This document shows positions 1,338 to 32,778 of a DNA stretch of 64,000 nt, piece after piece (the stretch's first letter is position 1; each line of letters starts with the position of its first letter). Below the pieces are notes generated by a model. The model did no database searches. It saw nothing but the letters and a program-made list of their open reading frames with translations, and was not told where the DNA came from. The translations under genes were made by a program, and so were the position numbers. The stretch covers positions 4,631,501 to 4,695,500 of the forward strand of contig NZ_JACHNB010000001.1 of NCBI RefSeq assembly GCF_014205225.1. Direction: 5' to 3'. The stretch is from Actinoplanes octamycinicus (lineage in GTDB: Bacteria > Actinomycetota > Actinomycetes > Mycobacteriales > Micromonosporaceae).

Positions 1338-1454
1338 GCGGTTGTTCGCGTGGGGGACGGTTCGGGCGGGGAGGGCCATTCAAAGGCCGTCAGGCTTGAT
1401 ACCTCCGAATGGCCCTCCCCGCCCGAACCTTGCCTACTCACCGGGACTGCCGCG
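1338..1454. repeat. Dispersed hairpin element, copy 1 (invariant loop core)
   Basis: Perfect 23-bp inverted arms (1359-1381 and 1407-1429) enclose a 25-nt loop containing CCGTCAGGCTTGAT. A second copy at 32666-32778 has the same 14-nt loop core and similar outer flanks (GCGGTTG at the left, ACCGGG then TGCCGCG at the right). Its arms differ in sequence yet are also perfectly paired. This copy lies between the rRNA operon (+) and the nucleotidyltransferase gene (-), so it separates convergent 3' ends. It could be a bidirectional terminator, a structured RNA or a mobile palindromic repeat; the sequence does not decide which. Confidence 0.8.
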
Positions 1455-6599: not shown

Positions 6600-7520
6600 T
6601 CAGCACTCGGCCTTGCCGAGGCGCCAGTAGCCCATGAAGGCGACCGCCCGGCGGTCGACGCCGCAGGTGCTGACCAGGTGGCGGCGGAGGGTCTTGATGA
6701 CCGCGGCCTCGCCGGCCAGCCAGGCGTAGAAGCCGTCGACCGCGTCGGTGCCGTCCGGGACCTCCCAGAGCAGGCCCTCGTCGACGTCCACGTCCTCCAG
6801 CTCGGCGCAGGTGGCGCCGGCCGCGTCGCCGAGCAGGTGGGCGGCGGCGGCCTGGACGGCCGGGATCAGCTTGGCGCCGTGTGCCGCGCCGTCGCGGGGC
6901 AGCCAGGTGACCCGGACGCCGGGCGGGGCGTCGACGAGCAGCTGGTCGCCGGACTCCGGGACCTCCAGGAGGACCTCGCCGCGCATGCCGGCGGGCAGGC
7001 GGGAGAGGATCGAGGCGATCGCCGGGACCGCGGTCTCGTCGCCGACCAGCAGGATCCGGTTGGTGCCGGCCGGCGGGTGGAAGTCGGTGCCGCCGGTCGG
7101 GCCGGGGAAGTCCGCGTTCGGCCCGAGCAGGCAGGCGATCGAGCCGGGGCCGGCCGAGACCGCCCAGCGCGACGCCGGGCCGCTGACGCCGTGCAGGACC
7201 ATGTCGACGTCGACCTCGCGCAGGTGCGGGCGGACCGCGCGAACGGTGTAGGTGCGGATCGGGTTCTGCCGGTCGGCGGGCAGGCCGCGCCACCGGGTGA
7301 ACCAGTCCTCGCCCATCGGCAGGTGGTCGATGCCGCAGCCGTCCAGCGGCGGGATCAGCTTGCAGCGCTGGTCGAAACCGTTGTCGGCGAACCGGTCCAG
7401 GTCGGCGCCGGTGAAGGTGACGCGCAGGAAGCTCGGGCTGAGCCGGGTGACCCGGACCACCTCGACCGGGAAGAACCGGAACGGGACCGCCTCGGTCGAG
7501 GGCACAACGGTCTGGCTCAC
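6600..7520 (-). CDS. Siderophore-interacting protein (ferric-siderophore reductase, ViuB/SIP type)
   Basis: The 306-residue flavoprotein reduces siderophore-bound iron in the cytoplasm so that iron is released. The FAD-binding motif RTYTVR is near residue 88, followed by the SIP-type HGVSGPASRWA stretch, where the FAD phosphate region lies, and a C-terminal NAD(P)H-binding half ending in MGYWRLGKAE. The GTG start at 7520 is preceded by GGAGG at 5 nt. An IdeR/DmdR-type iron box lies 22 bp upstream, so expression should rise on iron limitation. The gene stands alone, without a siderophore biosynthesis cluster in this window. Confidence 0.93.
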   Translation of the reverse strand: MSQTVVPSTEAVPFRFFPVEVVRVTRLSPSFLRVTFTGADLDRFADNGFDQRCKLIPPLDGCGIDHLPMGEDWFTRWRGLPADRQNPIRTYTVRAVRPHLREVDVDMVLHGVSGPASRWAVSAGPGSIACLLGPNADFPGPTGGTDFHPPAGTNRILLVGDETAVPAIASILSRLPAGMRGEVLLEVPESGDQLLVDAPPGVRVTWLPRDGAAHGAKLIPAVQAAAAHLLGDAAGATCAELEDVDVDEGLLWEVPDGTDAVDGFYAWLAGEAAVIKTLRRHLVSTCGVDRRAVAFMGYWRLGKAEC

Positions 7521-7541
7521 GGAATCCTCCCCGCGGTCGGT

Positions 7542-7560
7542 TTAGGTAACCCTAACCTAA
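7542..7560 (-). promoter_or_regulatory. Iron box (IdeR/DmdR-type operator)
   Basis: TTAGGTAACCCTAACCTAA matches 16 of 19 positions of the actinobacterial iron-box consensus TTAGGTTAGGCTAACCTAA. It sits just upstream of the siderophore-interacting protein start. Confidence 0.88.
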
Positions 7561-8139: not shown

Positions 8140-8196
8140 CCGGCTGGTCCTCATGGGTGTCTCGAGGCACGAGAGACACCCATGAGGACCAGCCGG
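8140..8196. terminator. Bidirectional hairpin between convergent genes
   Basis: Perfect 24-bp arms (8140-8163 and 8173-8196) close a 9-nt loop, GAGGCACGA. An outer GGGTC/GACCC pairing may extend it. It lies between the ends of the response regulator (+) and chemoreceptor (-) genes. There is no T-tract, so termination is inferred from position and stability. Confidence 0.75.
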
Positions 8197-31505: not shown

Positions 31506-32663
31506 ATGCGTCGCACAGTTTTCAACGAGGACCACGAAGCCTTCCGGGCGACCCTGCGGGACTTCCTGCAGTCCGAGGTCGTGCCGCACTACGACGACTG
31601 GCTGCACGAGGGCGAGGTGCCCCGCGAGTTTTACAAGAAGCTCGCCGAGCTCGGCCTGTTCGGCATCGAGGTGCCGGAGGAGTACGGCGGCGCCGGGATC
31701 GACTCGTTCAAGTTCGCCGCGGTGCAGTACGAGGAGACCGCCCGGGCCGGCGTCTCGTTCGGCGGCTCCGGCGTGCACGTCGCGCTCTGCCTGCCCTACC
31801 TGCTGAACCTCGCCACGCCGGAGCAGAAGCAGCGCTGGCTGCCGCCGTTCGTCAGCGGCGACATGATGTTCGCGATCGCGATGACCGAGCCGGGCACCGG
31901 GTCCGACCTGGCCGGGATGAGCACCACCGCCAAGCTGTCCGAGGACGGCCGGCACTACGTCCTGAACGGGGCGAAGACCTTCATCACCGGCGGCGTCCTG
32001 GCCGACCGGGTGATCGTCTGCGCCCGCACGTCGCCGCCGAAGCCGGACGACCGGCGGTTCGGCATCTCGCTGCTCGTGGTGGACACCAAGCTGCCCGGCT
32101 ACTCGGTGGGCCGCAAGCTGGACAAGCTCGGGCTGAAGACGTCGGACACCGCGGAGCTGGCGTTCCAGGACGTGCTGGTGCCGGTGGAGGATCTGCTCGG
32201 CGAGGAGAACAAGGGGTTCTCGTACCTCGGGCAGAACCTGCCGCAGGAGCGGCTCGGGATCGCGTTCGGGGCTTATGCCCAGGCCGCGGCGGCGGTGGAG
32301 TTCGCGAAGCGGTACACCCAGGAGCGGAAGGTGTTCGGGCAGACGGTCGCCTCGTTCCAGAACACCAAGTTCGAGCTGGCGGCTTGCCAGGCTGAGGTGG
32401 ACGCGGCCCAGGCGGTGGCGGATCGGGCTCTGGAGGCGCTGGACGCCGGGGAGTTGACGGCGGCCGAGGCGGCTTCGGCGAAGCTGTTCTGCACCGAGGT
32501 GGCGCATCGGGTGATCGACCGGTGCCTGCAGTTGCACGGTGGGTACGGGTTCATCAACGAGTACCCGATCGCTCGCCTTTACGCCGACAACCGGGTGAAC
32601 CGGATCTATGGCGGGACGTCCGAGGTGATGAAGATGATCATCGCTAAGGACATGGGGTTGTAG
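31506..32663 (+). CDS. Acyl-CoA dehydrogenase 2
   Basis: The 385-residue enzyme has the same family marks as the first (AIAMTEPGTGSDLAGMSTTA, NGAKTFITGG, LQLHGGYGFINEYPIARL, YGGTSEVMKMIIAKDMG) but a different N-terminus and probably a different chain specificity. It starts 13 bp after the SDR gene. The stop is 2 bp before the outer flank of hairpin element copy 2. Confidence 0.95.
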   Translation: MRRTVFNEDHEAFRATLRDFLQSEVVPHYDDWLHEGEVPREFYKKLAELGLFGIEVPEEYGGAGIDSFKFAAVQYEETARAGVSFGGSGVHVALCLPYLLNLATPEQKQRWLPPFVSGDMMFAIAMTEPGTGSDLAGMSTTAKLSEDGRHYVLNGAKTFITGGVLADRVIVCARTSPPKPDDRRFGISLLVVDTKLPGYSVGRKLDKLGLKTSDTAELAFQDVLVPVEDLLGEENKGFSYLGQNLPQERLGIAFGAYAQAAAAVEFAKRYTQERKVFGQTVASFQNTKFELAACQAEVDAAQAVADRALEALDAGELTAAEAASAKLFCTEVAHRVIDRCLQLHGGYGFINEYPIARLYADNRVNRIYGGTSEVMKMIIAKDMGL

Positions 32664-32665
32664 GG

Positions 32666-32778
32666 GCGGTTGCGCTAGGTGGGGGTTCCGGGCGGGGGCC
32701 CTCTTCGAAGCCCGTCAGGCTTGATGTCTTCGAAGAGGGCCCCCGCCCGGAACCTGTTTGGTTACCGGGGGTGCCGCG
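32666..32778. repeat. Dispersed hairpin element, copy 2 (invariant loop core)
   Basis: Perfect 27-bp arms (32684-32710 and 32728-32754) close a 17-nt loop containing CCGTCAGGCTTGAT, identical to copy 1 at 1338-1454. Inner arm bases differ between the copies (ATTC/GAAT in copy 1, CTTCGAAG in copy 2) and pairing is kept. It lies between the convergent ends of acyl-CoA dehydrogenase 2 (+) and the maltokinase-cap-like gene (-). The remaining 120 bp to 32901 show nothing further. Confidence 0.82.

Follow-up and report, generated by a model that had tools for sequence, protein, structure and literature searches.

Integron attC sites are long imperfect palindromes behind genes, in which the stem letters vary, the shape is kept and the bottom strand is the one that is folded; what they keep are the outer boxes (inverted core boxes RYYYAAC / GTTRRRY) and not the tip. 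For the palindromic element YPAL (RU-2) of Yersinia, De Gregorio et al. in 2006 reportedly described a preference for stop codons and an effect on the mRNA level. According to the excerpts of the YPAL report considered here, these palindromic insertions of a 168 bp repeat contain internal inverted repeats, enter targets that span or adjoin dyad symmetries with target-site duplications of 3–26 bp, occur with filled and empty sites and are 'co-translated' with upstream genes (PMC2229807). REP sequences, as characterized in the consulted sections of a further report, are extragenic palindromes measuring 20–40 bp; one end bears a GTAG or CGTC tag, and the stems of the CGTC families are 8–9 bp long. 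They lie mostly 3′ of coding regions and near the 3′ end of the preceding gene, between convergent or same-direction genes, and frequently form opposed pairs (PMC3733652). The words actinobacteria, Micromonospora and Streptomyces are absent from the main text of that report.

The hairpin element analyzed here shares single features with each of these systems. Like YPAL, as far as the excerpts go, it is palindromic with filled and empty orthologous sites, but in contrast to the 168 bp repeat its stems are free, only its tip is near-constant and its hosts are actinobacteria. The likeness to REP sequences lies in its extragenic position, convergent or same-direction in 191 of 196 contexts and divergent in 5, whereas its stem comprises 23–32 pairs with variable letters across the family (element about 75–100 bp) and its fixed part is the tip instead of an end tag. 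By eye, no GTAG or CGTC tag was common to the feet and flanks of the element, CGTC appearing only in the form A loop described below. Intrinsic terminators likewise form stable, GC-rich hairpins a short distance 3′ of a stop codon; the element differs from them by the missing T run, the near-constant tip and a copy between rpoB and rpoC. attC sites resemble the element as long palindromes behind genes with varying stem letters and a preserved shape, yet keep their outer boxes and not the tip; no cassette array was seen in the element loci read, and the flanks of the element look by eye like direct rather than inverted repeats.

Mobilization by a HUH/RAYT-type enzyme was considered and rejected, since the Y1 transposase (PF01797) does not track the element in 25 genomes: it was found in 9 and was absent in 16, of which 15 carry the element according to the model tallies (for example G021, G047, G063, G249 and G418). 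As the REP tag and stem size were not found and the Y1 transposase does not track the element, we do not claim membership in YPAL or REP. The earlier note on this DNA had known of no named family that fits, in agreement with our search of Rfam, which at gathering score gave no match over the element (window, 7 loci and 16 loci); at a loose threshold the region 1250–1560 of the window yielded only sub-threshold matches, mostly miRNA-type hairpins. No description of such an element was found in the sampled portions of the open-licence literature on actinobacteria, terminators/Term-seq and YPAL. The hairpin family is apparently undescribed, its unusual part being a fixed tip on a free stem.

Architecture of the hairpin in the window and its relatives

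The window, i.e. the whole stretch of 64,000 nucleotides that was analyzed, contains two copies on the plus strand, both of which are hairpins on CCGTCAGGCTTGATR with perfect stems. Copy 1 as a whole spans 1357–1431 and matches the covariance model R1 with 92.1 bits, copy 1 itself being among the 18 rows from which R1 was built. The 23-bp perfect arms that had been claimed for it were read directly: the 5′ arm GGTTCGGGCGGGGAGGGCCATTC (1359–1381) and the 3′ arm (1407–1429), its exact reverse complement, surround aaaggCCGTCAGGCTTGATacctcc, in which two A·C mismatches and three further pairs separate the arms from the loop. The loop CCGTCAGGCTTGATA (1387–1401) contains the core CCGTCAGGCTTGAT (1387–1400) and shows a TCA/TGA mini-stem with a GGCT tetraloop in the predicted fold, and the right flank TTGCCTACTCACCGGGACTGCCGCG (1430–1455) is alike among the copies of this genome. 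Upstream on the same strand, the 5S rRNA (1143–1259) is followed by an ordinary rRNA terminator hairpin with a T run (1269–1309, hairpin 1269–1304) and then by copy 1, corroborating its reported position after the rRNA terminator.

Copy 2 (32684–32754) is the second locus for which the same loop core on a different, perfectly pairing stem had been announced. It indeed possesses a perfect stem of 27 bp and the loop CCGTCAGGCTTGAT at 32712–32725, the 14-nt loop being identical in copies 1 and 2 and the stem letters different. The stop codon of an acyl-CoA dehydrogenase-type gene (31506–32663, plus strand) lies 20 bp ahead of it; the element is likewise located 3′ of this gene in L011 and L060 (identified by BLAST) and behind an acyl-CoA dehydrogenase-type gene in L037, matched by the likeness of its end. 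In comparison with shuffled sequences, folding energies corresponded to z values of −8.3 (copy 1) and −9.0 (copy 2), and for each copy 0 of 200 shuffles folded as well. Hairpins with arms of at least 20 (one mismatch allowed) and loops of 3–30 occur four times in the window, including copies 1 and 2. At up to three mismatches the loop pattern matched the window six times versus 5.6 times in shuffles, and only exact loop matches are therefore informative. Two further observations concern the window: a long perfect hairpin with 24 bp arms and a 9-nt loop at 8140–8196, between convergent genes and without the tip motif, is probably a terminator shared by these two genes, and the intergenic region 2360–2590 contains imperfect short repeats (ggctcgtggctcgcgg...).

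Two forms of the element were distinguished. In form A the stem is set directly on CCGTCAGGCTTGATR; form B reads CAC TCC GGG CGGTCAGGCTTGAT CCC TGC GTG and comprises a 3×3 internal loop. The 'loop' is predicted to refold around a GGCU tetraloop mini-hairpin in all six sequences folded. In general the finder asks for an 11-nt core within 1–3 mismatches and a pairing stem, and for the set of 239 contexts it demanded 11 of the 12 core letters within one mismatch, so that the constancy of the 12-nt tip core (1.85–2.0 bits over these contexts) is partly ascertained. The other 16 tip letters (including GGGC, CCC and GCG), which the finder does not demand, range from 0.7 to 2.0 bits. Loop variants such as TCAAGCTTGA, TCAGGCCTGA and GATCA..TGGTC are present as well.

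The flanks are less uniform. A left-flank motif TTG[CT]NGG was detected in 61 of 239 contexts versus 6 of 273 control windows and a right-flank motif (TTG[CT]NGG, also CGTGG) in 86 of 239 versus 11 of 273, thus marking only a minority of copies. Sense-strand flanks are rich in G and T, with a GC skew of 0.23 just 5′ of the stem compared to 0.00 farther upstream (n = 199). Right after the stem the T fraction is slightly raised (0.27 in the first 12 nt versus 0.20–0.21), without forming a T run.

Distribution and genomic placement

In the host genome (10.28 Mb) the core CCGTCAGGCTTGAT was found at eight exact matches, all of them with stems; the pattern read backwards, serving as control, gave 0 matches. 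Five of these exact-loop copies sit behind rRNA, and a ninth copy (L055) carries one loop change. Among 40 relatives, the host genome counted, the exact loop occurred in six, all of the host's genus. One of these matches, the exact loop in G003 (L009), has no stem, was taken as chance and was rejected as an element. In the wider search, R1 and a second model, R2, built from 51 copies of the sister form, were applied to the top candidates of a preliminary screen, which also caps the resulting counts. As both models also match other long hairpins, with 8 of 60 fetched loci (L069, L074, L094, L102 and L111–L114) showing no tip-plus-stem according to the finder, the numbers of genomes with matches are upper bounds for the element: R1 matched 41 of 67 in the genus, whereas R2 matched 172 of 300 in the family (18 of its 44 genera) and 5 of 394 in the class, two of these five lying outside the family. 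More copies in related genomes, for which the earlier note had proposed to search, are abundant in genus and family.

The exact 20-nt tip GGGCGGTCAGGCTTGATCCC was found in at least 120 stretches of GTDB genomes. The 80 titled matches listed belong mostly to Micromonospora, but also to Actinoplanes, Plantactinospora, Verrucosispora, Catenuloplanes and others; outside the family, two of the matches listed are from Trueperella bonasi and one is from an Actinomycetaceae genome. In T. bonasi (L232) and in the Actinomycetaceae genome (L237) the tip is placed on unrelated, AT-richer stems with z values of −6.0 and −6.6, respectively, and the other Trueperella match (L248) forms no stable stem (z +0.28). 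The T. bonasi copy (L232, 2983–3145) is located beside a TPP riboswitch, before a gene that by eye resembles a transporter gene. Copies in G418, a genome of another family, form tandem arrays with a spacing of about 115–170 bp, including at contig ends (L155–L161). Carriage of the element by phages or plasmids was considered and rejected, one 76-base copy giving no match to plasmids and phages and the exact tip GGGCGGTCAGGCTTGATCCC none in viral contigs.

For the placement analysis 196 distinct contexts were considered in which both neighbours had been called with a home-made codon-score caller, rRNA and other contexts without two called neighbours being dropped and orthologous copies entering as separate contexts. 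Of these, 100 are convergent, 70 same-direction sense, 21 same-direction antisense and 5 divergent. A same-strand upstream gene is present in 170 of 196, with the copy at a median of 23 bp behind its stop codon (quartiles 16, 23 and 66 bp), and in the other 26 the copy is not sense behind a gene; two overlapping subsets concur on the same-strand upstream gene (95 of 105 and 77 of 94). The next gene follows within 150 bp in 26 of the 70 same-direction sense copies. Several convergent gene pairs have a copy behind each gene, the two copies facing inward. tRNA genes were examined as upstream partners of copies without a same-strand gene and rejected, none being found in 19 and 17 loci.

Upstream genes encode phosphoglycerate mutase, Mrp, TatB, urease alpha, TypA, type III pantothenate kinase, RpoB and a response regulator, in addition to rRNA (G000, G058 and G062), and in view of this diversity a common function was rejected. 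Micromonospora sp. KC213 (L241) carries a sense copy in the gap between rpoB, which ends 8 bp ahead of it, and rpoC, which begins 43 bp after it, and a strong terminator is hard to accept at this place; a genome of another family (G477) carries a copy in apparently the same gap, judged by likeness, in opposite orientation. Furthermore, in two genomes a ZMP/ZTP riboswitch is found a few hundred bases behind rRNA-linked copies (L002, 1799–1889; L064, 1770–1859), and in G021 tandem repeats of about 50 bp stand between two facing elements (L020, about 7050–7550).

Stem covariation and conservation in place

That the stems covary, as the earlier note had expected under selection on a folded RNA or DNA shape, was analyzed for both forms. 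For form A (14 distinct rows) 93.8% of the stem cells are paired and 23 of 29 pairs are altered on both sides versus 13.6 in shuffles; further pair types amount to 33 versus 29.8, which is not clearly above the control as 57 of 500 shuffles reach 33. For form B (51 rows) 98.1% of the cells are paired and 20 of 27 pairs are altered on both sides versus 12.8. Scored on the structure drawn from the very sequences, covariation reached 0.611 for form A (0.175 shuffled, at most 0.134 slid) and 0.470 for form B (0.116 shuffled, at most 0.086 slid), and the far lower values of the slid controls argue against relatedness alone as its source. The claim of selection on shape is thus supported by many copies of relatives, whose stems covary above shuffles, although part of the compensation could originate from copying of one arm from the other (template switching) instead of pair-by-pair selection.

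The mismatch spectrum is of a particular kind. One-sided G·U states are scarce (2 of 1377 cells in form B), and the stem cells of 191 form B windows comprise 4589 Watson–Crick pairs, 70 A·C, 17 G·T and 99 others. Among private mismatches, which are nearest-neighbour estimates made without a tree and partly several from one copy, A·C was counted 23 times, G·T 6 times and others 30 times. Private stem changes on the same basis were G>A in 18 versus C>T in 2 cases, compared to 21 versus 24 in the mostly coding upstream window (p 0.001) and 8 versus 5 farther downstream. Tests on these private mismatches and changes gave Fisher p 0.00095 and binomial p 0.0023. With this A·C excess and G>A bias, the sense RNA hairpin does not stand out as the conserved form, and such a spectrum does not fit simple selection on it. 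Top-strand A·C pairs are G·T on the bottom strand, and a bottom-strand hairpin or arm-to-arm copying would fit better, against which speaks the tip, whose G·U lies on the top strand in the predicted fold and becomes A·C on the bottom. With G·U pairs nearly absent and A·C mismatches commoner, the folded form may be either RNA or DNA.

Presence and absence at the same locus were read for gpm, mrp and coaX, in each case in the 30 top-scoring matches to a query that carries the element, a selection that is not random. Filled and empty orthologous sites occur at all three, absence meaning loss or lack of gain. For gpm and for mrp, 67 loci each were found and 30 each were read; the element is present in 5 of the gpm loci read and in 3 of the mrp loci read, in two of the latter as a facing pair with tatB; for coaX, which is matched in 151 of 151 genomes, the finder located it in 15 of 30 loci read. 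At gpm in G011, G047 and G055 the element follows the stop codon and precedes the native terminator. In two coaX loci (L371 and L381) only the tip is readable, and three others (L364, L372 and L374) contain by eye remnant-like pieces, some of them repeated left-hand pieces ending near the tip, which may result from slippage at the strong hairpin. Orthologous copies in six locus sets show an identity of 0.86–0.99 versus 0.23–0.81 for the flanks, a comparison that is partly ascertained as the sets were picked by the tip for having the element, the stems being asked only to pair. The coding control, a fixed and mostly coding window 120–440 nt upstream, gave 0.71–0.91, and in the regX3-like set this window and the element are equally conserved (0.905 and 0.901, respectively). 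Movement of the element is deduced from its distribution, the flanks of the relatives read being too divergent for target-site duplications or a clean junction to be recognized.

Possible explanations of the element

We consider it slightly more likely than not that the hairpin is a dispersed REP/YPAL-like palindromic element at the 3′ ends of transcription units, which is read through its tip. The tip would be the part that some cell factor reads, and the stem would need only to be a long palindrome, so that its letters may drift; selection, and probably also a copying process between the arms, would preserve their match. In the transcript the element may form a very stable hairpin, in the 3′ UTR or between cistrons, that protects or separates the upstream message and terminates transcription partly but not fully, and it may have spread by insertion beside gene ends by a putative enzyme recognizing the folded tip. 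This explanation is based on the stem covariation above shuffled and slid controls, the sense placement behind genes (170 of 196, with 70 sense versus 21 antisense), orthologous copies that are more alike than their flanks together with same-locus presence and absence, the tip on unrelated stems in T. bonasi and an Actinomycetaceae genome and the conserved outer tip letters, and the positions between stop codon and native terminator at gpm and, in sense, between rpoB and rpoC. Against it stand the A·C and G>A spectrum, the 26 of 196 contexts that are not sense behind a gene and the Y1 transposase, which does not track the element.

A special class of terminator, in which the hairpin would stop transcription behind a gene or an rRNA operon and a tip-binding factor would replace the T run, would account for the very stable hairpin, its median distance of 23 bp from stop codons, the 100 of 196 convergent contexts, the copies behind rRNA in three genomes and the slightly raised T fraction after the stem. 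We regard it as unlikely, since the T run itself is absent, a sense copy separates rpoB from rpoC, the next gene is within 150 bp in 26 of 70 cases, copies lie beside native terminators at gpm and rRNA, and an ordinary terminator has no need of a fixed loop. The mismatch spectrum, in which private mismatches are mostly G·T on the bottom strand (A·C 23 versus G·T 6), would rather point to a site for single-strand DNA recombination or transposition, where the bottom strand folds and a putative tip-reading recombinase moves the unit by an integron attC- or HUH-like logic, the gene-end position being target choice and not function. The patchy occurrence outside the family, the tandem rows in G418, the direct-repeat-like flanks and the repeated left-hand pieces at coaX are consistent with such a site. 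However, the search for recombinases, which covered the Y1 transposase, gave none that tracks the element, one copy matched no plasmid or phage, the exact tip was absent from viral contigs, conservation in place suggests host use, and the tip pairs better on the top strand, with G·U there and A·C on the bottom, so that we hold this explanation to be quite doubtful.

Control of message stability by a protein or small RNA that binds the GGCU tip in the 3′ UTR appears improbable to us: sense orientation, conservation in place and the predicted tetraloop mini-hairpin in six of six sequences would agree with a regulatory RNA, but the upstream genes have no common function, G·U is nearly absent from the stems and the same locus is filled in some species and empty in others. 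A bolder view than the dispersed REP/YPAL-like element favoured above, which we put forward tentatively and find somewhat unlikely, is a new actinobacterial class of element in which only the folded tip is information. Some factor would read it, perhaps on the bottom DNA strand, and copying would keep the arms identical; the stem would thus change as a single mirrored sequence, and the element would cross family borders with a new stem on each occasion.

The many stems around one tip represent a natural experiment on what keeps long palindromes perfect, and the element family can show which factor reads such a tip. The family also places a strong hairpin within or 3′ of core units of antibiotic-producing genera, namely rRNA operons, rpoBC, gpm, mrp and coaX.
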